Positions 3-14,336 of a DNA stretch of 21,712 nucleotides are shown piece by piece (position 1 is the first letter of the stretch; every line of letters starts with the position of its first letter). Source of the DNA: a virus. The translations under genes were made by a program, and so were the position numbers. The notes beneath the pieces are model-generated. The model did no database searches. It was given only the letters and a program-made list of their open reading frames with translations, and had not been told where the DNA came from. The stretch covers positions 1-21,712 of the IMG/VR virus record IMGVR_UViG_3300021962_006780; one strand, given 5' to 3'.

Positions 3-545
3 AAGCGCCTGAAAAACCTGTTGCAAGAATACCCTGTGTACACCGAGTTTCTGGAAAACGTAAAGGGTATAGGCCCTGCTATGGCCGGAGTGATTATCAG
101 CGAGATTGATATTCATAAAGCCAAGTATCCGTCTTCTATATGGGCATACGCGGGGTTGGATGTCGGGCAGGATGGTAAGGGACGTAGCCGCAAAAAAGAA
201 CATCTGGTGGAGTCTACTTACACCGATAGCGACGGCGAGACGCAAACTAAAATGGGTATATCGTTTAATCCGTGGCTCAAGACTAAATTAATAGGGGTTT
301 TGGGTAGTAGTTTTCTACGCGTCGGGGAAAACAAGTATTCTAAAATTTACTACGACTACAAAAACCGACTTGATAATTCCCCCACCCATGCGGAAAAAAC
401 CAAGAAACACAGACACAATATGGCTATACGTTATATGGTCAAGTTGTTCTTGGTAGACTTGTATGTTGCGTGGAGGACTGTAGAAGGTTTGGAAGTACAT
501 AAACCGTACCACGAAGCGAAGTTGGGCATCGTGCATACTGCGTAA
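3..545 (+). CDS. TIGR-associated (Tas) protein, C-terminal IS110-like/Nop-type domain, 5' partial
   Basis: The reading frame is open through the left window edge, so only the last 180 residues are present. Numbering from position 3, the visible part carries the helix-hairpin-helix-like signature of the IS110/IS116 C-terminal (Transposase_20) domain: VKGIGPAMAG (residues 20-29), then WAYAGLD (47-53), NPWLKTKL (89-96) and a basic HRHNMAIRYMVK stretch (136-147) before an HKPYHEAKLG tail. The usual compact Ser-Gly motif of IS110 transposases just after AGLD is not obvious, and about 35 residues rich in charge lie between AGLD and NPWLK. IS110-like proteins encoded in phages next to 36-nt dual-spacer arrays are Tas proteins, which bind tigRNA through a Nop-like domain related to box C/D snoRNP proteins. 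The stop codon (543-545) overlaps the first array motif. The N-terminus is missing, so whether it carries a RuvC (TasR), HNH (TasH) or no nuclease (TasA) cannot be told. The alternative is a true IS110 transposase, which the array makes unlikely. Confidence 0.82.
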   Translation, partial: KRLKNLLQEYPVYTEFLENVKGIGPAMAGVIISEIDIHKAKYPSSIWAYAGLDVGQDGKGRSRKKEHLVESTYTDSDGETQTKMGISFNPWLKTKLIGVLGSSFLRVGENKYSKIYYDYKNRLDNSPTHAEKTKKHRHNMAIRYMVKLFLVDLYVAWRTVEGLEVHKPYHEAKLGIVHTA

Positions 546-1207
546 CGAGTCAAAGGCAACGAGTCACTGAGCAAAAGAAAACCACAGACCATGAACGAGT
601 CATCGAGGTCAAGAAAACCAAGCGAACTAAACGAGTCAAGGCTAGGGAGAAAACCAGAAATCGGAAACGAGTCATACAAAGGAAGAAAACCAAAGTAACG
701 AAACGAGTCACGGAGAGAGAGAGAAAACCACAGACGACGAACGAGTCATTACTAAAGAGAAAACCAGTAAAATTGAACGAGTCATGGAGAGAGAGAAAAC
801 CACAGACCATGAACGAGTCAAAGTTCGAAAGAAAACCATGAAAACTGAACGAGTCAAAGCTCGAAAGAAAACCATGAAAACTGAACGAGTCAACCGTGGG
901 AAGAAAACCATATATCCTAAACGAGTTAAGCACAATAAGAAAACCATTGGAAATTAACGAGTCACGCAAAGAAAGAAAACCAAAATATCGAAACGAGTCA
1001 AGTATTTTAAGAAAACCATAGATATTGAACGAGTCAGGCAGAATAAGAAAACCAATTAACAACAACGAGTCATAAATCATAAGAAAACCATCATCGATTA
1101 ACGAGTCAATAAATACAAGAAAACCAATAAAAATTAACGAGTCAAAAGCAATTAGAAAACCAACAAGAAATAACGAGCCGACAAATACTATAAACCCATA
1201 GTGATGC
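544..1207. repeat. TIGR array: 17 dual-spacer 36-nt units with partial head and decayed tail
   Basis: Seventeen units begin at 558, 594, 630, 666, 702, 740, 776, 812, 848, 884, 920, 956, 992, 1028, 1064, 1100 and 1136. Each reads AACGAGTCA, spacer A, AGAAAACCA, spacer B. All spacers are 9 nt except spacer A of the unit at 702, which is 11 nt and GA-rich. AGAAAACCA is invariant in all 17 units. AACGAGTCA varies once (AACGAGTTA at 920). An extra AACGAGTCA at 544 sits only 5 nt before the first full unit. The unit at 1172 is decayed (AACGAGCCG, then ATAAACCCA at 1190). Two alternating constant boxes, 9-nt spacers and a 36-nt period match TIGR arrays, whose transcripts are processed to 36-nt tigRNAs with two guide segments. 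Which box is 'edge' and which is 'loop', and which strand is transcribed, are not settled here. The + strand is favoured because tas reads straight into the array with no terminator visible. Confidence 0.88.
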
Positions 1208-1260: not shown

Positions 1261-2823
1261 ATGGAAATACTGGAAAACAAAGCTTTGCTTTTGCGCGTTC
1301 GTAATCCGGACAAAATAACACAAAGCATTAAAAAAAGTTTTGTTGTTGAGCAGAAAGACGACATCACCGAAATAGCGGTGCACTGGGGTTTAAAAGAAAC
1401 GCAAGAACTAGCCAAATTAAACTTTAAGAATATACCATCACCTATTTTTAAAGATTATATTTGGACTGGAAAGCTGTTACCTTTTGAACACCAGAAAACC
1501 ACCGCTAGTTTTTTAACGCTGCACAAACGAGCTTTTTGTTTTAACGAGCAAGGTACGGGGAAGACAGCCAGCGTTATATGGGCGGCGGATTATTTGATGA
1601 AATTGGGGATACTAAAAAGAGTATTGGTTATATGTCCGTTGTCCATTATGAAACCCGCATGGCAACAAGATTTGTTCAAATTTGCCATGCACAGAAGCTG
1701 TGGGATAGCCCATGGAACGGCGAGTACCCGTAAAAAAGTAATAGCTGCAAACACAGATTTTGTAATAATAAATTTTGATGGCGTAGGAGTCGTAGCAGAC
1801 GAAATAAAAAATGGTGGGTTTGATTTGATTGTTGTTGACGAAGCGACGGCTTATAAATCGGCCCAGACTACAAGATGGAAGATACTCAGCAAGATTGTTG
1901 CCAATGTAGAATGGTTGTGGATGTTGACAGGCACACCAGCGGCTCAGTCCCCCATAGATGCGTTTGGCATAGCCAGACTTATAAACCCGGATAACACCCC
2001 TAGATTTTTTAATCAGTTCAGGGACCGGGTTATGTATAAGTTGTCGGCGTTTAAATGGATGCCAAAACCGGGTGCTAAAGAATACGTACACTCTATACTG
2101 CAGCCCGCAATACGATTTGAAAAAAAGGATTGTCTGGATTTACCTGATATTATTTACATGGACCGTGATGTGGGCATGACCCCGCAACAGAAAAAATACT
2201 ATGAAGAGCTGAAAACAGAGTTGTTTTTGGAAGCCGCTGGGGAAGAAGTATCCGCCATAAATGCAGCCGTTAAGCTAAGTAAATTGCTCCAGATTGCTTG
2301 TGGCTCTGTGTATACCGATACGGGGGAAGTTATAGACTTTGATGCCTCAAATAGAATGGACGCAGTTGTAGAAGTGGTAGAGGAAGCGTCTCATAAAGTT
2401 CTGGTGTTCGTCCCTTTTACGCATACTATAGAGCTACTTTCCAAACGCATGGAAAAAGAAGGAATACCTTACGGGGTAATCGATGGCAGCGTGTCGGTTA
2501 ATAAACGCTCTGAAATAGTTAAAAAATTTCAAGAGCAAGAAATCCCCAAAGTATTAATCATACAACCACAAACAGCTTCTCATGGACTCACGTTGACGGC
2601 AGCAGATACTATTATTTGGTATGCCCCAATAACAAGTGTAGAAACATATTTGCAAGCAAATGCGCGTATAGACCGCCCCGGACAAAAAAATAGTATGACC
2701 GTGGTGCATATAAAAGGAAGTGAGGTAGAGTCGCGGTTATACACAATGTTGCGAAATAACATCAACACTCACAATTCGTTGATTGATTTGTACAAAAAAA
2801 TAATTACAGAACCGGATAAATAG
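1261..2823 (+). CDS. SF2 (SNF2-like) DNA helicase
   Basis: A 520-residue ATP-dependent helicase/translocase of superfamily 2, expected to act on phage DNA during replication, recombination or transcription. Visible motifs in order: Q-motif-like FEHQKT (75-80), Walker A NEQGTGKT (95-102), motif Ia region VLVICPLSIM (121-130), Walker B DEAT (193-196), motif III LTGTP (222-226), motif V ASHGLTL (439-445) and arginine-finger motif VI QANARIDRPGQ (465-475). Both RecA-like lobes are complete, so the protein is full length for a compact phage SNF2-type helicase; no extra accessory domain is seen. The ATG at 1261 has no convincing Shine-Dalgarno sequence, but the N-terminus (EILENKALLLRVRNPDKI) runs into the conserved fold without spare residues. 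It follows the TIGR array on the same strand and leads the replication module. The exact substrate is not deducible. Confidence 0.92.
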   Translation: MEILENKALLLRVRNPDKITQSIKKSFVVEQKDDITEIAVHWGLKETQELAKLNFKNIPSPIFKDYIWTGKLLPFEHQKTTASFLTLHKRAFCFNEQGTGKTASVIWAADYLMKLGILKRVLVICPLSIMKPAWQQDLFKFAMHRSCGIAHGTASTRKKVIAANTDFVIINFDGVGVVADEIKNGGFDLIVVDEATAYKSAQTTRWKILSKIVANVEWLWMLTGTPAAQSPIDAFGIARLINPDNTPRFFNQFRDRVMYKLSAFKWMPKPGAKEYVHSILQPAIRFEKKDCLDLPDIIYMDRDVGMTPQQKKYYEELKTELFLEAAGEEVSAINAAVKLSKLLQIACGSVYTDTGEVIDFDASNRMDAVVEVVEEASHKVLVFVPFTHTIELLSKRMEKEGIPYGVIDGSVSVNKRSEIVKKFQEQEIPKVLIIQPQTASHGLTLTAADTIIWYAPITSVETYLQANARIDRPGQKNSMTVVHIKGSEVESRLYTMLRNNINTHNSLIDLYKKIITEPDK

Positions 2824-4460: not shown

Positions 4461-7328
4461 ATGTTGGGGGAGGCAACTCCCCCTTCGTTTCTTATGGATA
4501 ACTTTGACCTTTTAACCGCCATTCAACCATCTGAAGGATGGTACGCAGTAATTGGCATACGGGGGGGAAGTGTCAAGCAGGAGTTTGCAGAAAACAAAGA
4601 ACAAGTACAATCCATAGTAGAAAAGTTTATCTCGAACAACCGAGACGTATATTTCGGTGTAGCCAAGTACAAGACAGACAAGAACCGCACTAAGGACAAT
4701 GTTCTTGGGCTGAAATCTTTTTGGATAGACATAGACTGTGGAGAGGATAAAGCTTCTGTAGATGAAGAGACGGGTAGACCAAAAGGCTATGTGTCTCAAG
4801 CAGACGGAGTAGAAGCTTTAAAGCAGTTCTGCAAGGTAACCAAGCTCCCTAGACCTATTATCGTTAATTCAGGGCGCGGTATACACGCCTACTGGCCGAT
4901 TACGACTACTATACCGCGTGAACAGTGGGAACCTGTAGCCAAAAAGTTACGGGACCTTTGTATAGCGAATAATTTTTACATAGACCCAAGTGTGTTCGAA
5001 GTAGCACGCATACTGCGTATACCCGGCACCTACAATTTCAAAGACAACCCGCCAAAACTGGTGGAAGTGCTGAGTGTAGCCCCCGCTACAGATTTTTATA
5101 CTTTTTGTGGTTTACTTGGGGTAGCCACTGAAACTGAAAAGCCAAAGCCAAAACGGGAATTGACTGAACTGGCCAAGTCCATGATACAGAATATGACTTC
5201 TGTATTTAGCAAAATTATGGTCAGAAGTGCAAAAGGGAACGGGTGCGCCCAACTTATAGATTGCTTTACAAACCAGCATAACTTGTCGGAACCAAGATGG
5301 TTTAATGCCCTCTCCATAGCCAAGTTTTGTGAGGATGCAGACAAGGCTATACATAAGATGTCTGAACGGCATCCTGATTACGCCCACGCTAAAACTGAGC
5401 AAAAAATAAAGCACATAGTAGGTCCGCACACGTGCTCTCAATTTGAAATGAACAACCCGGGTGGGTGTGATGGGTGCCCATTTAAGGGGAAAATAACCAG
5501 TCCTATTCAGCTTGGCAAAGACATTAAGCAAGCAGAGGGGGAAGACAACAACGTACAGGATGAAATAGACCCAAGCATTGTATACACGATACCTACATAT
5601 CCTAAGCCGTTTTTTAGAGGCAAGTATGGTGGTATTTATTACATGCCAGAGGAAGAAGAGGCAGAACCTGTATTCGTATATGAAAATGATTTGTATGTCG
5701 TTAAAAGAATGAAGGACCCGGTATTAGGAGACGTAGTTGTTATGCGTGTCCATATGCCACAAGACGGAGTTAAAGAATTTACGGTACCCAACACCTGCAT
5801 AGCAGAAACAAAAGAACTTAAAAAGCTGTTATCCAGCCACGGGGTTTTATGTGGCAAGCAAGCTTTTGACTTGTTGGGGTTGTTTATAATGTTCTCAATA
5901 AAGGGCTTACAGAAAGAAAAGAGGGCGGAGCAAATGAGATTACAATTTGGTTGGGCGGATAACAACAGTAAATTTGTCTTGGGGGAACGTGAGATTACCA
6001 AAGATGGGGTTTTCCACAGCCCTCCCTCGAACATAACAACGAAACTGGCAAAACAGTTATGCCCTGCCGGGTCTTACGAAAAATGGAAGCAAGTGTTCGA
6101 CTTGTATAATAACGAAGGGCTGGAGCCTCATGCTTTTGCTGCGTTGACGGCGTTCGGTGCCCCGCTTCTAAAAATGTTTGGGCAAAACGGAGCTGTTATA
6201 AACGTGATTTACCCAAGGTCAGGTACGGGCAAAACCACCATTTTGCATATGTGCAACAGCGTATATGGGCACCCGGAAAATCTCTGTGCTATGTGGGACG
6301 ATACTCTGAACGCCAAAATAATGCGCCTTGGAATTATGAACAACCTTCCATTTACTATAGATGAAGTTACAAACATGACCCCGTTGGACTTTTCTACTTT
6401 GTTATACAGCATGTCACAAGGACGCGGCAAAGACAGGGTAAAGGCTTCAGCTAACGAACTAAGAGCCAATCTGACTTCGTGGCAAACCATATCGCTGTGT
6501 AGTTCCAATGCGTCATTCTATGAGAAATTGTCTTCCCTAAAGCACAGTGCGGATGGCGAGATGATGCGGTTAATTGAGTACAAGATTGACTACACTTCGG
6601 TAATAGACCCGGCTGTAGCCAAAGAGATGTTTGACCATCAGTTGTACAACAACTATGGGCACGCTGGGGAAATATACCTTATCCATTTGGTGAACAACTT
6701 TGAAGAGGTTTTGGAGGGCGCGTTGAGTGTACAAGCCAAAATAGACTCTGAGTTAAAGCTTACTTCTAGGGAAAGGTTTTGGTCGGCGGTGGTCGCTGCA
6801 AACATATCCGGAGGTTTAATCGCACGTCAGCTTGGCATCATAAACTGGGACATGAAGCGGATATATAAATGGGCAACCAAGGAAATAATAAGCCTACGAC
6901 AAGACGTAAAAGCTCCGGTTAATGATACAGTATCGGTGGTAGGAGACTACATAAACAGGCATATTAATAACATTTTGGCTGTTGATGCTGATAACGATTT
7001 ACGCACAAACATGCCCAAGCTACCCGTTATGGAGCCCAAGGGTGAGCTATTGATACGCTACGAACCCGACGTAAAGAAGCTGTATTTGGCGGTAAAAGCT
7101 TTTAAGAGAGACTGCGTAGAATCCCAGATAAACTACAAAGAGACGCTACGGCAGTTGGAGGAAAAGGGAATTTACCTTGGGGCTGTAACAAAGCGCATGT
7201 CAAAGGGTATGAAGATTGTGTCTCCGGGCGTACATGCTTTGGTGTTTGATGCGTCAAGCCCCGAGTTTTTTGATATGACTACGATTGTTGGAGAAACTGA
7301 TAATGAAGATAGAGGGAGTCAGTTATAA
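4461..7328 (+). CDS. Bifunctional primase-polymerase / helicase (PrimPol + DUF927-like ATPase)
   Basis: A 955-residue replication enzyme joining an archaeo-eukaryotic-type primase to a replicative ATPase. The N-terminal third has the PrimPol signatures: FWIDIDCG (87-94; Asp90 and Asp92 as metal ligands), NSGRGIHAYWP (136-146; catalytic His142) and RILRIPGTYNFKD (183-195). A CSQFEMNNPGGCDGCPFKGK stretch (325-344) carries Cys325, Cys336 and Cys339 and resembles a zinc-binding linker. The C-terminal half is DUF927-like, with Walker A RSGTGKTT (586-593) and Walker B FTIDE (631-635). It should prime and unwind phage DNA at forks. The start is supported by AAAGGAG at 4451-4457, 3 nt before the ATG. 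Met12 is a possible internal start but lacks such a site. The final 29 bases overlap the next small gene. Confidence 0.92.
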   Translation: MLGEATPPSFLMDNFDLLTAIQPSEGWYAVIGIRGGSVKQEFAENKEQVQSIVEKFISNNRDVYFGVAKYKTDKNRTKDNVLGLKSFWIDIDCGEDKASVDEETGRPKGYVSQADGVEALKQFCKVTKLPRPIIVNSGRGIHAYWPITTTIPREQWEPVAKKLRDLCIANNFYIDPSVFEVARILRIPGTYNFKDNPPKLVEVLSVAPATDFYTFCGLLGVATETEKPKPKRELTELAKSMIQNMTSVFSKIMVRSAKGNGCAQLIDCFTNQHNLSEPRWFNALSIAKFCEDADKAIHKMSERHPDYAHAKTEQKIKHIVGPHTCSQFEMNNPGGCDGCPFKGKITSPIQLGKDIKQAEGEDNNVQDEIDPSIVYTIPTYPKPFFRGKYGGIYYMPEEEEAEPVFVYENDLYVVKRMKDPVLGDVVVMRVHMPQDGVKEFTVPNTCIAETKELKKLLSSHGVLCGKQAFDLLGLFIMFSIKGLQKEKRAEQMRLQFGWADNNSKFVLGEREITKDGVFHSPPSNITTKLAKQLCPAGSYEKWKQVFDLYNNEGLEPHAFAALTAFGAPLLKMFGQNGAVINVIYPRSGTGKTTILHMCNSVYGHPENLCAMWDDTLNAKIMRLGIMNNLPFTIDEVTNMTPLDFSTLLYSMSQGRGKDRVKASANELRANLTSWQTISLCSSNASFYEKLSSLKHSADGEMMRLIEYKIDYTSVIDPAVAKEMFDHQLYNNYGHAGEIYLIHLVNNFEEVLEGALSVQAKIDSELKLTSRERFWSAVVAANISGGLIARQLGIINWDMKRIYKWATKEIISLRQDVKAPVNDTVSVVGDYINRHINNILAVDADNDLRTNMPKLPVMEPKGELLIRYEPDVKKLYLAVKAFKRDCVESQINYKETLRQLEEKGIYLGAVTKRMSKGMKIVSPGVHALVFDASSPEFFDMTTIVGETDNEDRGSQL

Positions 7329-7583: not shown

Positions 7584-10500
7584 TTATAGCTCCTCCATCA
7601 TATCAAACAGGATGTCTTTTACTGCAGGATTGAAGTACACCCCATACATTAAACTTTCTTTTGAGCGTTCTCTGCTTTTTTTCGATTTACGCAAGTCCGA
7701 ATTATCAATGCGGTATTGCGGGTACTGTTGATAAGTACGGTTAAACTTTACTATTTTTTCCATTGTTTCAACCATAGCATCATAGTCACCCGCTTGAGAC
7801 GAATCTACGTAAGCCCGCATAAGCTTTTTCCTGCGGTTTAATAACTTAGCTTCTTGTTCTTTCTTTAAGCTAATAAAGTCTTGCTTATTGGATATGGAAG
7901 TAGGCGAAAACCCTGTAGCCTGCCTAAGTATGTCCCAAGCCCCTATGTTTTCTTCTATAGGGTCGCCGTCGCGTGTGGTTGCACCTTTTTCTGCAAACCG
8001 AAACGCTTTCATGAAGTTTCGCCAAAATCCGGGTACCACAGACTCTAAAGACCTCATCCAATCCCCGTCTTGTTTCCACTGGTCATACGAGCGTTCCAAG
8101 CCTATTGCGTAACCCCCCATAGGGCCAAAAGCTTGTGTCATGCCATACCTTACATACCCAAGGTCCGCTATGCTTACAGGGTCATCCCTAAATATCAAAT
8201 CCTGAGCCACACCTACGCGGTTCGCTATTTCAACTCCAAGCATAGCGTTGACGGGCCCTTTCATCCCCAAATCGCCTATAAATTCCTGTAGCTCGTTTCT
8301 AAGGTCATAAGGTTCATCTTCATCACCAAACATGCCAGCAAGTAAGTCGCTGACCAAAGCCAGCATACCGAAGAAAGGAAGCCCTTTGACCCCAGCAAAA
8401 GTAAAGGCCATGCCGTATATACCGAGTGCTTGACGCAACGCTAGGCGCTTTGTTTCCGGGTCTGCGTTTGAGTTACGTAACGCAAGATAGATACTACGTG
8501 CAGTAAAATACGCACTATTCCAAAGGAAACTCTTAAAGGTAAACATAATTCTGCCTACGCCACCCATACCACCCTGCATAACAGTTGGTGCCGTTTCAGA
8601 AAATCCCGAGGTATTGATGTAAGAGACCATTTCCAAAGCATACTGAATGGCTTCCTCTTGTGACATTTTTTTACCATTTAAGTCACCTTTCAGGGCAAGC
8701 TCATAAGCGGCAATAGCTGTTGCGGCACGGTTTATTTTTTCCGTATAACCAAACATACTAGCCAGCATGTTTTGTGCTTTTTTCCATTTATTTTCCGGGT
8801 CAACAGCGGACTCTTCCCCACCTACCATAAGCTCACGAGCAAAAGTGTGTTCAAGCTGTCCGGAGTCCATCAGGTTTTCATAGAGCTCTTTATAGCGTGG
8901 GTCTTCCCCTAGGGTGTTATCATCCAAAAACTTCATATGTTTTGCGGCCAACTTGGTAGCTTTGGTCAATTCTTTGGCGGTGTCCCCCCAACCATACCGG
9001 GCCGCAAGAATAGGCTGCGAAAACATAGGTATAGTCGAAAAGTTTATTACTGCTGAAGAAATGTTGCCGGTTATAAACATGAAAAAGCTACCCATAGACA
9101 TGGTATTAACCGCTGTACTAAACGTAGGATTATGGAAGAAATCACGTTTATCCTGAATTACAGAATTCAAATCCATTGCTTTTTCAAGTGACATCGGCGG
9201 ATTGGCCATTGCTCCCATAGCACTTGTTTCTTGCCTAAGTTCGTTTAATGCGCCATCTATTTGGGGTATAAACTCCGTGTTGTTCAGCTTATTGGCAAAG
9301 CCCGAGGCAGTTTGAGCAAACCCTCGGACAATATCTATGTCCATCCCCGCACGGTCTTTTGACTTCATAAATCGTTTCATAACAGAAGACGCGGGAAGGC
9401 TCTCAAGATATAGCTGATATACCGCATTAAGTTGCGTTTCTGAAGCACCACGCTCCTTCATTTTGCTCATCAATTTGGTAACAAACGCTGTAGGTGGCGC
9501 ATCCCCGGCAGAATAAGACACATCGGTGTTTTTATTCATACGCACAATACTTGCCGGGTCCACTCCTTCGGATGCCAAATATGCTATAAATTTATCGCGC
9601 TTTTTGGTGGTTTCAAATGCAACAACTACTTTTTCTTCCGAAACCGGGTCTTTGAAAGACACCATAAAATCACCGAACCGAAGGAAAGGAACGTAGGAAG
9701 CATTTTGTTCAAAACTTTTAAACCGGGCCTCAAGTTCTTTGAAAAGCTCAGGGTCTGTAGCCGCTACTTGAGATAGCATCAAGTTCTTATATTCGTTTCG
9801 TATGCTCTTGTAAGTATTTACTATTGACTTGTAAACACCCTGTACTTCCGAGGGCAAATTGCTATAAACCGTAGACAGCCTGTAGTATTCCGCACCTTGG
9901 GCAGCGTCAACGGGTTTAAAGTTGGGGTCAAGCAAATCTACATTGGCCAGCCTAGCATCTATCGCCATTTTATTCATGCGCTCAACGGCATTTTTAAACT
10001 TATTTTGCCGCGTGACTTTCTTTATGTCCTTAATAATGTCTTCAAGGGCATTTAATCTACGCATTAATTTGCCCCTACGGAGCAACAGCGTTTTTAGCAA
10101 TTTCTTTATGGCGGGGAACAGCTTTCCGTACATATCTGCCAAATTTTCTAGGCGCAGTGTTCTATATAAAGTCCGCCGTCCTGTGCCCGCCAGTCCGTCA
10201 AGGTTTGCATCAAGTTTGTCTCTTACTTCTTCGTTTAACACAGGAGCTGACTTAACAGCATTATTTATCACTGTATTAAAGTTTTTACCGTTGCCAAGGA
10301 ATAACACCTCAACAGGGTTTGCCTCTACATCTCTGGAAATGTCTATGGCATCAGTAACTATTTTTACACCCTTATCAAACGCACTGGTGCCTTTCTTAAA
10401 TCCAAGCATTTCCGCAATCGTTTGCATTATGCGTTGGAAAATATTACCGCTCTTGGGGGCCTTAATCGTTTTGAGCAAGGCTTGGAAGTCCGGGTTACTT

Positions 10501-13500
10501 ACTAACTCCGAAGCAAATTCCTGTATGTCTTTTCCACCATAGGTTTTACCCAGACGGTCTTTAATTTGGTCAAACAAAGAAACCAGTTCTTTTGTTGCTT
10601 TTATATCCGGATTCATTAAAACTTTTGAAATTGCCGCGTGAATCAACTCATGCGTAAAAGTCTGTGTATTGAGCCCGGTATTGGGGTCTAAGATAATGGT
10701 ATCCGTGTAGTAGTTATAACCACCGCCAAACCCTTCTGGAACTTTCCCTATAACAACTTTAGTCTTTAACTTAAGATTTCTAATACGCCCCAATAGAAAC
10801 ATAGCTGTCGGGTTTTGTGTAGCTTTTTGGCTATATGCTATAAGCCCATCCAAATTACTGGTATTGACCATCTCAACAGCACGAGCATCAAAGTCCGTAC
10901 CTTCAAGCGTAGGTCCAAACATAGGACGGTTAGAGGTCATTTCACGCTTAATGCCTTCAATTTCTGAAATGCCTTTAAGAGATTCTTTACCCGGTACTAA
11001 TTCCTCGTATATACGCTTATTACCCATGTACTCCAGAACTTTTACGTCTCCGGTGTTATAAGCAACGCGAACTACCGCAGTATTTTGTGGGGTACGAGTA
11101 ACAGTTAGGTTTTCCAAAGCTACATCTTTTCTAGCATATCCTCTTTTTAATTCCGCTATAGTGCCAGCGTTAACTCGCATTATGTCTTGCCTTATGCGGT
11201 CAGTAAGTTGTTTATCCGTAAGCTTGGTTTCGCTTGGCCTAGGATTACGTGGGTATTTACTTGGCGGTCGCTTCCCAGCGGGGGTAACAACTTCTTCCTC
11301 TTCAGAAATTTCAGTTTCCGATTCAGCTTTGGTTTCTGGTTCAGCTTTGGTTTCCGGTTCAGCTTTGGCTTTTGGTTCAGCTTTGGCTTTTGGTTCAGCT
11401 TTGGTTTCTGGTTCAGCTTTGGCTTTTGGTTCAGCTTTGGTTTCCGGTTCAGCTTTGGCTTTTGGTTCAGCTTTGGTTTCTGGTTTACTTGTAGGAATAG
11501 GCAACAACCCTTTTAAGGCGTTAGCTTTTTCAACATTTGCAGGTTTTGTGCTTTTTTCGTTTTGCGTAATAAATGCTTCGGCCCGTTTAATAATTTCGGG
11601 GTTGTTTATATTGGCTTTATCAGGATTATTTTTTACGTATTTGTAAAGAGCCCCAGACTTAGGAAATCCTATGTTGTCCAAAGTTTGTAATGTAAGTAAT
11701 GGGATACTTTCCGTAGTAACTTCTTCAGCAGTAGCAGGGGTTACAGTTTTTTGCGTAGGAGTAGGAGCAAATAAATCCATTTGCGTTTCTGGTACACCTT
11801 CTTGCTTCTGCAACATCCTGTTTATATCTAAAGCGCGTTTTACGCTAGACTCATTATTTTTAGCCTTAACTATTTCGTTAGTAGCATAGGAACGTAGAGT
11901 TTCCTGTACTTCAGGAGAGTTTAAGTCTTTACCAATTATACTTGCCTTACCTCTACGTAACGCAGCAGTTTTTGGTATTTTTAACTCATCCAAGAATTCT
12001 TCTGTTATAAGTTTAGACGCGACGGGTTCTTCGACAGGTGCCGCAGTAGGTTTGGTTATTTGCTTTCTACCCAACCCCGGAAATGATAACTGCCCGGGTT
12101 TCTGTTCCTGCTTCGTCCTCGTAGCCGCAGCTTCCATAAGTTGATTTTGCGCGGCATCATGGGTTGTAGGTATTTGATCCAAAGGAGGCTTGGTAGCAGT
12201 AAGTGCACCAATAGCCCTGTTCAACAAGTTCTGTTCTGATTCAGTTATCGTGGTGTCTTTAAACCCTGCACGTTTTAAAACTGCAGAAAAAGCTTCCGGC
12301 AGTGCTTCTGCGTAAGAAGGGTCTGCGTTTTCTATAAGCGGTATAAGTATACTTCTACGTTTGTTTTCCGTAGCAAGTTGACGCGCTGCGTCACGTTTGA
12401 GGTCTACTGTCTCAAGCTCAGATTCTGCTTTAAGTGTTTCTATTTCCTGAGCACGCTGCAAACGTTCAGCTTCATCTTCCGCCAGCATCTTTTCTATTTC
12501 GCTGGTTTCAGCGGCGTCTTTTTTAGCAACTTCTTGTTGCAACTTTACTCTTTCTGCTTCGGCTGTTCTCTGTTCATCTTCAGCCAGCATACGCTTGATT
12601 TCTTCAGTCTCAGCAGCTTCTTTTTGCGCTGCTTCCTGTTGTATCCTTATTTTCTCATCCGCTGCTATTTTAAACTCCGGACGCTCAAGGTACGCGGCTA
12701 TGTTGTCCGCAACACCTTCTTTTTTGGTTACCTCGGCATAGCTGGACAACGCAGTTTTTACAAATTCCGCGTCTTCTGGTTTGGATAAGTCCTTACCATG
12801 CAATAACTTGTTTCTATAGAACGTAACCCCTTTGGGTATACCCAGACTGTCCAGCACCCTATCGTCAATAATAGTTGGCAAAGGACCACCACGCAGGGCT
12901 TCGGGCGTAGGAGCCATGTCTTCACCAAACATACCTATCTGTTCAATAGGCTGACGCCGTGCTTTTGGACCTTTACCTGCTTCGGCCTGTTTTATAGATT
13001 TGCCAAGTTCAGTTTTACGTTCTTTCAAAGACTTAACTACGTCTTTCTGCGCCTGCAGGTTATCCATGAACGACTTCTTAATTTTGTTTTTCTCAGCTAA
13101 GTCAGTAATACCCTCACGCTGAAAATATCGATTAAGCGCCGCTGTGTCCGTAACGTCAACCGGATTGGCTATGCCTTGTTGTTGAAAATAGGTTTGTAGA
13201 TTTTGTTCAGTAGGTTCCGTTGGTATAAGTGAAGTATACGGCCCTGTCTCAAACCCCGGTAAGCTAGGCTGAACCTGCTCGGTTGTAGGGATTGCTGCTA
13301 TCTCCGCCTCGGTTGCTTCACGTTTAGCTACTTGGCGTTGTGTTTCTGCCAAATCCTGCTCTTCACTTAATTTTTGAAGGGCTTTATCTTTGTTTGCCAC
13401 GGTACGCAAGGCGCTACCAACACCCCCCATAGGTGCACCTAACAACGCAGCGCCAATAATGGATTGAGTGTATTCTTCCCGTGCCTCTTCACCAGTAAGG

Positions 13501-14336
13501 GGCAACCCTGCCTGCCAGCGTTCCAAGAACTGTTGGGCTACTTCTTGCGGAACTTCTATGGATACACCCTTTGCTGCGCCTTTGAAGATACCTTCTTTGG
13601 TAATGGTGTATTTACCAGTACTTATTGCCTCTTCCAGTGCTTTGCCTGTTTCTTTAATGGCAGCATCATCTGCTTCACCCAGCAGGTTTTTAAGAAATGG
13701 GAATTTTGTAAATACAGGCTTTAATAACCGCATACCTGCATAATCCAGCGCGGTTTGCCCAACTGCTGCGGCAGTAGCTTTGCCCAAAGAAATCTCACGA
13801 GGAGCCCGACCTTCTGCTACATCACGTTCTTGTGCTTCCGCTTGCCTCTTAAGGTTTTCTATTTCATATTGGGAAAAAAGAGTTGTTGCACCAGCCGCAA
13901 CACCTGTAACCGGGGTGGCAAAAAAAGTGCCCGCAGTTGCAGCAGCTACTGGAGCAGCTAGAAAACCTAAACTGCCACCCGCCAATTGCTTTAAGGCATT
14001 CCAGTTACCGATAAGCCCTTTGTCACCGCCAAAGCCCCCGGTGTATTCATACTTGGATTCCGCTGCTTCAAGAAAGGCTTGACGGTTTTCTTCAGTGGGA
14101 TTAGCAGCCCACGCCGCCGCTTCATCCGCTAACCCTACAGTAGACGCAGCATCAAACAAACTACCCCAAAACCCCGCTTGTTCTTTTTCAGGTTCGGGAG
14201 TGGTGAAGAATGGGGTTGTTGATAATCCACCATATTGTTTAGCTATAGCTCCGTAGTCAACATTACTTGTAGGCGTAATAGAATCGGAAGAAATACTGCC
14301 ATATTTCTTAGCTATAGCTGCGTAATCTACCGCCAT
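7584..14336 (-). CDS. Giant polyvalent internal virion-type protein with HELIH metallopeptidase motif
   Basis: A 2250-residue multidomain protein, probably packaged in or ejected from the virion. Layout: two DY(A/G)AIAK(K/Q)YG motifs near the N-terminus (4-13 and 27-36); a hydrophobic Ala/Gly-rich segment (about 115-155); a long charged coiled coil with an internal duplication (about 560-640); three copies of a roughly 65-residue repeat with an 'IPK' core (near 490, 775 and 880); a Lys/Ala/Glu/Pro tract (about 952-1005); a zinc-peptidase motif HELIH (1229-1233) with a likely third ligand in QEFASEL (1272-1278); then a large helical C-terminal half with hydrophobic segments near 1750-1770 and 1968-2004. 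The C-terminal half resembles the large polyvalent-protein-associated domains of phages. Position at the end of the virion operon suggests a role like podoviral internal core proteins, with the peptidase acting on host wall, host proteins or itself; that is inference. Its ATG overlaps the upstream stop by one base. Confidence 0.85.
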   Translation of the reverse strand: MAVDYAAIAKKYGSISSDSITPTSNVDYGAIAKQYGGLSTTPFFTTPEPEKEQAGFWGSLFDAASTVGLADEAAAWAANPTEENRQAFLEAAESKYEYTGGFGGDKGLIGNWNALKQLAGGSLGFLAAPVAAATAGTFFATPVTGVAAGATTLFSQYEIENLKRQAEAQERDVAEGRAPREISLGKATAAAVGQTALDYAGMRLLKPVFTKFPFLKNLLGEADDAAIKETGKALEEAISTGKYTITKEGIFKGAAKGVSIEVPQEVAQQFLERWQAGLPLTGEEAREEYTQSIIGAALLGAPMGGVGSALRTVANKDKALQKLSEEQDLAETQRQVAKREATEAEIAAIPTTEQVQPSLPGFETGPYTSLIPTEPTEQNLQTYFQQQGIANPVDVTDTAALNRYFQREGITDLAEKNKIKKSFMDNLQAQKDVVKSLKERKTELGKSIKQAEAGKGPKARRQPIEQIGMFGEDMAPTPEALRGGPLPTIIDDRVLDSLGIPKGVTFYRNKLLHGKDLSKPEDAEFVKTALSSYAEVTKKEGVADNIAAYLERPEFKIAADEKIRIQQEAAQKEAAETEEIKRMLAEDEQRTAEAERVKLQQEVAKKDAAETSEIEKMLAEDEAERLQRAQEIETLKAESELETVDLKRDAARQLATENKRRSILIPLIENADPSYAEALPEAFSAVLKRAGFKDTTITESEQNLLNRAIGALTATKPPLDQIPTTHDAAQNQLMEAAATRTKQEQKPGQLSFPGLGRKQITKPTAAPVEEPVASKLITEEFLDELKIPKTAALRRGKASIIGKDLNSPEVQETLRSYATNEIVKAKNNESSVKRALDINRMLQKQEGVPETQMDLFAPTPTQKTVTPATAEEVTTESIPLLTLQTLDNIGFPKSGALYKYVKNNPDKANINNPEIIKRAEAFITQNEKSTKPANVEKANALKGLLPIPTSKPETKAEPKAKAEPETKAEPKAKAEPETKAEPKAKAEPKAKAEPETKAEPETKAESETEISEEEEVVTPAGKRPPSKYPRNPRPSETKLTDKQLTDRIRQDIMRVNAGTIAELKRGYARKDVALENLTVTRTPQNTAVVRVAYNTGDVKVLEYMGNKRIYEELVPGKESLKGISEIEGIKREMTSNRPMFGPTLEGTDFDARAVEMVNTSNLDGLIAYSQKATQNPTAMFLLGRIRNLKLKTKVVIGKVPEGFGGGYNYYTDTIILDPNTGLNTQTFTHELIHAAISKVLMNPDIKATKELVSLFDQIKDRLGKTYGGKDIQEFASELVSNPDFQALLKTIKAPKSGNIFQRIMQTIAEMLGFKKGTSAFDKGVKIVTDAIDISRDVEANPVEVLFLGNGKNFNTVINNAVKSAPVLNEEVRDKLDANLDGLAGTGRRTLYRTLRLENLADMYGKLFPAIKKLLKTLLLRRGKLMRRLNALEDIIKDIKKVTRQNKFKNAVERMNKMAIDARLANVDLLDPNFKPVDAAQGAEYYRLSTVYSNLPSEVQGVYKSIVNTYKSIRNEYKNLMLSQVAATDPELFKELEARFKSFEQNASYVPFLRFGDFMVSFKDPVSEEKVVVAFETTKKRDKFIAYLASEGVDPASIVRMNKNTDVSYSAGDAPPTAFVTKLMSKMKERGASETQLNAVYQLYLESLPASSVMKRFMKSKDRAGMDIDIVRGFAQTASGFANKLNNTEFIPQIDGALNELRQETSAMGAMANPPMSLEKAMDLNSVIQDKRDFFHNPTFSTAVNTMSMGSFFMFITGNISSAVINFSTIPMFSQPILAARYGWGDTAKELTKATKLAAKHMKFLDDNTLGEDPRYKELYENLMDSGQLEHTFARELMVGGEESAVDPENKWKKAQNMLASMFGYTEKINRAATAIAAYELALKGDLNGKKMSQEEAIQYALEMVSYINTSGFSETAPTVMQGGMGGVGRIMFTFKSFLWNSAYFTARSIYLALRNSNADPETKRLALRQALGIYGMAFTFAGVKGLPFFGMLALVSDLLAGMFGDEDEPYDLRNELQEFIGDLGMKGPVNAMLGVEIANRVGVAQDLIFRDDPVSIADLGYVRYGMTQAFGPMGGYAIGLERSYDQWKQDGDWMRSLESVVPGFWRNFMKAFRFAEKGATTRDGDPIEENIGAWDILRQATGFSPTSISNKQDFISLKKEQEAKLLNRRKKLMRAYVDSSQAGDYDAMVETMEKIVKFNRTYQQYPQYRIDNSDLRKSKKSRERSKESLMYGVYFNPAVKDILFDMMEEL
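11322..11483 (-). repeat. 18-bp minisatellite, nine tandem copies, within the giant virion gene
   Basis: Nine head-to-tail 18-bp units begin at 11322, 11340, 11358, 11376, 11394, 11412, 11430, 11448 and 11466 (+ strand reading TTCAGCTTTGG then TTTCYGG or CTTTTGG). They alternate between two variants and encode about 54 residues of a KAEP/TKAEP tract. The unit is a multiple of three, so copy-number change keeps the frame. Confidence 0.93.

Follow-up and report, generated by a model that had tools for sequence, protein, structure and literature searches.

A stretch of 21,712 nt of viral DNA (the window; the whole 21.7-kb IMG/VR virus record IMGVR_UViG_3300021962_006780, classed as linear and therefore probably a fragment) carries at its start the end of a tas gene followed by an array of short alternating repeats and spacers, and the membership of this locus in the TIGR-TasA family of RNA-guided systems is firm. 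In what we consider the best full explanation, it is highly probable that the locus is a dual-repeat TIGR-TasA system of a tailed phage. Comparison with related loci further indicated that the tas-array cassette travels between phages and that its guides are reshuffled as halves.

The array consists of units in the order edge repeat AACGAGTCA, spacer A, loop repeat AGAAAACCA and spacer B, and column counts gave 9 nt for each repeat and each spacer. The exact loop repeat was counted 17 times, between a first copy at 576 and a last one at 1154, copies of the edge core ACGAG lie at 545, 559, 595 and onward to 1173, and the TAA stop codon of the tas frame (543-545) contributes the first 2 bases of the first edge repeat (544-552). 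In agreement with these observations, an earlier note on this DNA had described two 9-nt repeats alternating with two 9-nt spacers, 17 dual-spacer units and an array starting at the stop codon of the Tas gene; the "exact 36-nt period" that it also claimed held for 16 of the 17 units, the remaining one being 38 nt long, probably through GA replication slippage. The array was detected by Tandem Repeats Finder, and its self-match at lag 36 was 65.3%, compared with an average of 32.8% and a maximum of 39.6% in 2000 mononucleotide shuffles. The window has a truncated 14-nt first unit after the first edge, and the sibling loci L004 and L008-L010 have an intact 36-nt first unit. In L008 (1223-1330) and L010 (616-725), a GA run much longer than that in the 38-nt unit of the window expands a unit of the same kind to about 108-110 nt, the two expanded units being one GA step apart in otherwise near-identical phages.

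The tas frame is cut by the first base of the window, and the full 287-aa protein was supplied by the L002 contig, which is 99.98% identical to the window over 4.2 kb. The sequence of this protein matched the solved TasR (9mty) with an E value of 1e-16 and TasH with 1e-7. An AF2 model built from 16 homologues (pLDDT 83) showed an all-helical N-terminal part, and its top ten fold matches in the PDB were TasR and TasH chains, an IS110 recombinase ranking 11th and far weaker. When the full protein was searched against Pfam, Transposase_20 (IS110 C-terminal) was the sole domain match and no RuvC, HNH or DEDD domain was detected, so that the protein was assigned to TasA, the nuclease-less type. Among the PHROG families, PHROG 4285, labelled transposase, matched both TasA clades considered below best (E 6e-40 and 1e-46), and Tas proteins probably go unrecognised under this label in phage annotations.

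The repeats also follow the pairing known from TasR, in whose structure every repeat has a box C/D pair, to which the edge repeat adds one more pair (PMC12045711). According to our own matching of window positions to the published boxes, the edge repeat would form A-U at positions 2-7 and C-G at 3-6, and the loop repeat G-C at 2-7. In 15 loci the edge pair 2-7 is A-U, G-C or G-U and the edge pair 3-6 alternates between C-G and U-A, with few exceptions, a pattern of covariation that agrees with the edge-repeat pairing seen in the TasR structure.

The association between tas and such arrays was found from both directions. A protein search returned 30 viral loci, nearly all with a 36-nt dual-repeat array near the gene (none was detected near the homologue in L024), and a search by array DNA alone returned 60 stretches, almost all with an adjoining tas; in two of the array-found loci (L213 and L180) the gene lies just outside the fetched stretch. 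A genome scan added nine more loci in bacterial assemblies. When cultured phages were searched by tblastn, Salicola phage CGphi29, which is the SpTasH phage of Faure et al. (PMC12045711), and a Microcystis phage matched, both with 36-nt arrays beside the gene, and blastn of the array against cultured phages gave chance-level matches only. A TIGR-like array beside a HigA-like antitoxin frame was observed in L033 (2810-3360 of the 54-kb contig 3300035698_007284), where no Tas gene was found anywhere in the 54 kb, and is possibly an orphan array. Each test proposed in the earlier note that could be run favoured its TIGR-Tas assignment, which is here refined to TasA. Comparison of the full Tas from the flanking contig with TasR and TasH, as that note had proposed, identified a solo Nop-type TasA by sequence, fold and domains; of the findings that it had said would speak against the assignment, an intact IS110 recombinase was not found among the domains of the full protein, and as to homologues lacking arrays, homologous loci carry arrays and arrays carry Tas with few exceptions.

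The cassette, taken as the region from the tas ribosome-binding site through to the next gene, lies within a replication-gene block, and its borders are gene junctions without element ends. In relatives of this phage with no detected tas, an HNH-like gene sits beside an SNF2 helicase gene in 32 loci, nearly all abutting, and in two independent cases, the window clade and L070, tas plus array occupy this junction. The L070 insertion (5729-6950) encodes a different TasA (265 aa) with repeats TGCGAGCCA/TGAAAACCA, those of its clade being of the UG...CCA type, between the HNH-like gene and SNF2, which indicates that the junction took up a TIGR cassette at least twice. Between window/L002 and the siblings, tas is 97-99.4% identical and the flanking HNH-like, SNF2, Gam-like, 304-aa and DUF927 genes are mostly 64-78% identical (a short 55-bp HNH match, at 84%, being the exception), so that the cassette moves as a unit. 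The similarity starts about 17 nt upstream of the tas start codon and in L006 extends to the first SNF2 codons. Because tas dS is only 0.01-0.08 in these comparisons, with a dN/dS of roughly 0.1-0.4 between window clade phages, a recent transfer is a better explanation of the similarity than constraint. These data are direct evidence, at the sequence level, that diverged phages exchange the module and carry it in one slot; phages co-infecting a cell would transfer it by homologous recombination. Two siblings, L003 (1500-2085) and L004 (860-1380), have between array and SNF2 a methyltransferase-like frame, judged by eye to be of the DNA adenine methylase type, that neither the window nor L006 has.

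Sibling comparison also indicated that the arrays turn over while tas barely changes. The window and L003, with tas 99.6% identical over the compared stretch, have only 2 units in common out of 17 and 12, respectively, and L003 shares none with L005, L006, L008 or L009 at about 98% tas identity. In another clade, L190 and L204 have both array ends in common and a different interior. One-ended growth of the CRISPR kind was considered and found no support, some siblings matching at both ends and differing inside. Drift was seen in 51 families of near-identical units; the substitutions, 73 of them in spacer A and 72 in spacer B, were distributed across all positions. In addition, 14 spacers (3 A and 11 B) were found twice within one array with unrelated partners, and two null models predicted 0.03-0.06 such repeats per spacer class, or about 0.1 in total. 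Half-guides therefore reassort, which is best explained by recombination at the repeats. Recombination at loop or edge repeats would create new 18-nt specificities without acquisition machinery, and it may be the main source of new guides; the discovery paper had put forward the idea that recombination might be kept to a minimum by the shortness of the repeats (Faure et al. 2025, PMC12045711). In the literature searched, of which the coverage was partial, no earlier description of cassette exchange or half-unit reassortment was found. The reassortment is lopsided in arrays L003-L231, where 16 B and 5 A spacers recur with an unrelated partner and the A and B substitutions are equal.

Targets were sought with 65 unit pairs of the window clade and 474 pairs from all parsed arrays, at gaps of 0-2 and with mispaired controls. 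The published geometry places the two spacers on opposite strands with a gap of 0-2, 8-nt 3' overhangs and a C-5 rule (PMC12045711); the target form A+rc(B) was derived from the text of that paper, and, because one sentence there reads differently, all four geometries were tested. One unit, variants of which are kept in most sibling arrays, has an exact gap-0 A+rc(B) site, TAGAGGTCATAGTTCGCT, in the AAA_25 gene of other phages, one of them from the neighbouring sample number 3300021961. The site codes for a conserved GLRGHSSLLG motif, and the spacer variants AGA/CGA/CGT and CTg/TTg are synonymous there, unlike the variant AGT. Scans of the whole of IMG/VR with two conserved units returned 3 and 4 stretches, those of the second unit in unrelated genes; because some 2-3 independent matches per scan correspond to background, the AAA_25 match cannot be claimed from its count, and we regard it as a candidate lead only. 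An excess seen in one set was discarded as circular, since that set had been picked through the match itself. A codon-phase test of within-spacer drift gave a mild excess, with P between 0.014 and 0.20 at the four thresholds used (0.025 in the first run), which is suggestive only. Read on the array strand, both spacers are rich in purines (about 60% over 967 units, and 67% for spacer A of the window), a bias unexpected for a contiguous coding target read on opposite strands.

We propose that transcription of tas continues through the array, which would form the 3' tail of the message, and beyond it into the helicase operon; co-transcription with tas is probable because the array lies directly behind tasA and no terminator was detected. 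By analogy with FpTasA, TasR and TasH, cleavage inside every edge repeat would turn the transcript into 36-nt tigRNAs, which a TasA dimer would bind, and homology suggests that spacers A and B would base-pair with the two opposite strands of a single 18-20-bp DNA site that has no protospacer-adjacent motif. On this analogy RNA-guided DNA binding by the TasA dimer is very likely and DNA cutting by TasA alone is unlikely, so nuclease-less TasA would most likely bind, unwind and bend its target, blocking transcription or replication. The sibling comparisons show that the guides diversify by half-unit reassortment, point drift and slippage. Several observations weigh against this reading. The loop pair 2-7 is often non-standard in L013 and L025. 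No rho-independent terminator was found after the array and no promoter or terminator signal on the array strand (positions 1-1500 scanned), and a TIGR array typically, although not necessarily, ends in a truncated edge repeat plus a rho-independent terminator (Faure et al. 2025, PMC12045711); a decayed last repeat is present at the end of the window array. Moreover, composite targets showed no convincing excess over mispaired controls in 2.05-2.46 Mb of related or TIGR-bearing phage loci; the search with paired A and B spacers, suggested earlier, yielded the one AAA_25 candidate, at background rate.

Interference with other phages would best fit the cassette transfer and the fast guide turnover, and we give an even chance to a blocking role of TasA, directed most plausibly at competing phages that share the cell. 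In a more detailed and rather improbable scenario, the cassette would be a horizontally exchanged inter-phage weapon whose guides, rather than coming from outside, are made inside the array by 9-nt-repeat recombination and drift, at least one conserved guide (TAGAGGTCA/AGCGAACTA) aiming at GLRGHSSLLG of a rival's AAA_25 helicase-like gene and its variants mostly following synonymous codons. TasA might instead be guided to genes of its own phage or host and regulate transcription, replication or recombination, as its lack of a nuclease, the position of the cassette inside a replication-gene block and the proposal by Faure et al. of regulation or integrase help as possible TasA roles would allow; however, composite sites with 0-1 mismatches were not found beyond chance in the DNA searched (the window itself, its siblings and related phage loci), and fast guide turnover among siblings is unexpected for fixed self-regulation, so that we consider such self-action possible but doubtful. 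It is quite unlikely that the neighbouring HNH-like gene supplies the nuclease in trans, as a split TasH: the cassette does lie directly behind that gene in both independent insertions, but the gene also accompanies SNF2 in the 32 loci with no detected tas and, of 87 tas loci (68 with room upstream), only 5 have it immediately before tas.

The Nop-type protein and the box C/D-like guide architecture might also suggest an RNA-targeting system resembling box C/D snoRNPs, engaged for example in rRNA marking. Spacers antisense to E. coli rRNA or tRNA, however, occurred at chance level (25 of 1482, against 19.3 (10-28) in shuffled spacers), TasR did not act on RNA (PMC12045711), and no fibrillarin-like gene was present among the annotated neighbours, which makes RNA targeting very improbable. 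Finally, the protein could be an IS110/IS1111 transposase that uses a single bridge or seek RNA and merely has unrelated tandem repeats beside it, an idea to which the Transposase_20 match, the PHROG label and the movement of the cassette between phages lend some support. This explanation is largely refuted, and its probability is minimal, by the missing DEDD domain, the far better sequence and fold matches to TasR and TasH than to IS110, the lack of element ends at the cassette borders, the 36-nt dual arrays beside nearly all homologues, and an array RNA that is not more structured than shuffles (z +0.9), is unlike bridge RNA and has no Rfam match (3' side of the gene examined).

Among known systems, the dual-repeat TIGR-TasA of Flavonifractor plautii (FpTIGR; PMC12045711), compared by description only, is alike in its solo Nop protein, 36-nt units, two alternating 9-nt repeats, two 9-nt spacers, gene-side array and phage context, whereas the window locus has its own edge and loop sequences, an array overlapping the tas stop and no terminator found. 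TIGR-TasR (Thermoproteota archaeon, 9mty) shares sequence and fold homology and the same repeat pairing grammar, but has an N-terminal RuvC nuclease and UG/CCA boxes, where the window has no nuclease and boxes A(A/G) and (U/C)CA. The phage-borne TIGR-TasH of Salicola phage CGphi29 has a 36-nt array, AGCGAGCCA/AGACAACCA, close to that of the window, and carries an HNH nuclease that the window protein lacks. IS110/IS1111 transposases (e.g. ISCro4) have the Transposase_20/Nop-type RNA-binding region in common with it, but the window system has no DEDD domain and no single bridge RNA, and the fold match is weaker (E 8.7e-3). CRISPR arrays are alike in being repeat-spacer arrays beside an effector gene with a decayed far-end repeat; unlike them, the window-type arrays have two short repeats and paired spacers with no adaptation genes found nearby, turn over in the interior rather than at one end, and reassort half-units. 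The features of the locus are listed in Table 1.

Table 1. Features of the TIGR-TasA locus in the window
Feature	Positions	Strand	Remarks
tasA, 3' part (180 aa); predicted solo Nop-type RNA-guided DNA-binding protein	3..545	+	full 287-aa copy at L002:6098-6961
First edge repeat and truncated first unit	544..557	+	overlaps tas stop TAA
TIGR array, 17 dual-spacer units	558..1171	+	
Unit TCGAGGTCA/AGCGAACTA	595..630	+	its family persists in most sibling arrays; phage AAA_25 gene as candidate target
38-nt unit	703..740	+	spacer A lengthened by GA (CGGAGAGAGAG)
Decayed terminal (18th) unit	1172..1207	+	AACGAGCCG ... ATAAACCCA
Conserved cassette tail reaching first SNF2 codons	1224..1269	+	common to L006
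SNF2-family helicase gene	1261..2823	+	downstream border of cassette slot

Elsewhere in the window, the minus strand encodes a 2250-aa protein (7584-14336) whose C-terminal third matches a DarB-like antirestriction family, and the gene contains an 18-bp tandem repeat (11314-11485).

TIGR-Tas systems were described in 2025 with three stated unknowns, namely the targets of the guides, the origin of new guides and the role of the nuclease-less TasA (PMC12045711). Siblings with near-identical tas and differing arrays make the question of guide origin testable, and the observation that cassettes travel between diverged phages and that guides recombine as halves bears on where guides come from. The locus also offers phage systems and one candidate target for studying guide targets and the role of TasA, and, the best-matching PHROG family being labelled "transposase", existing phage annotations may hide further TIGR-Tas systems.
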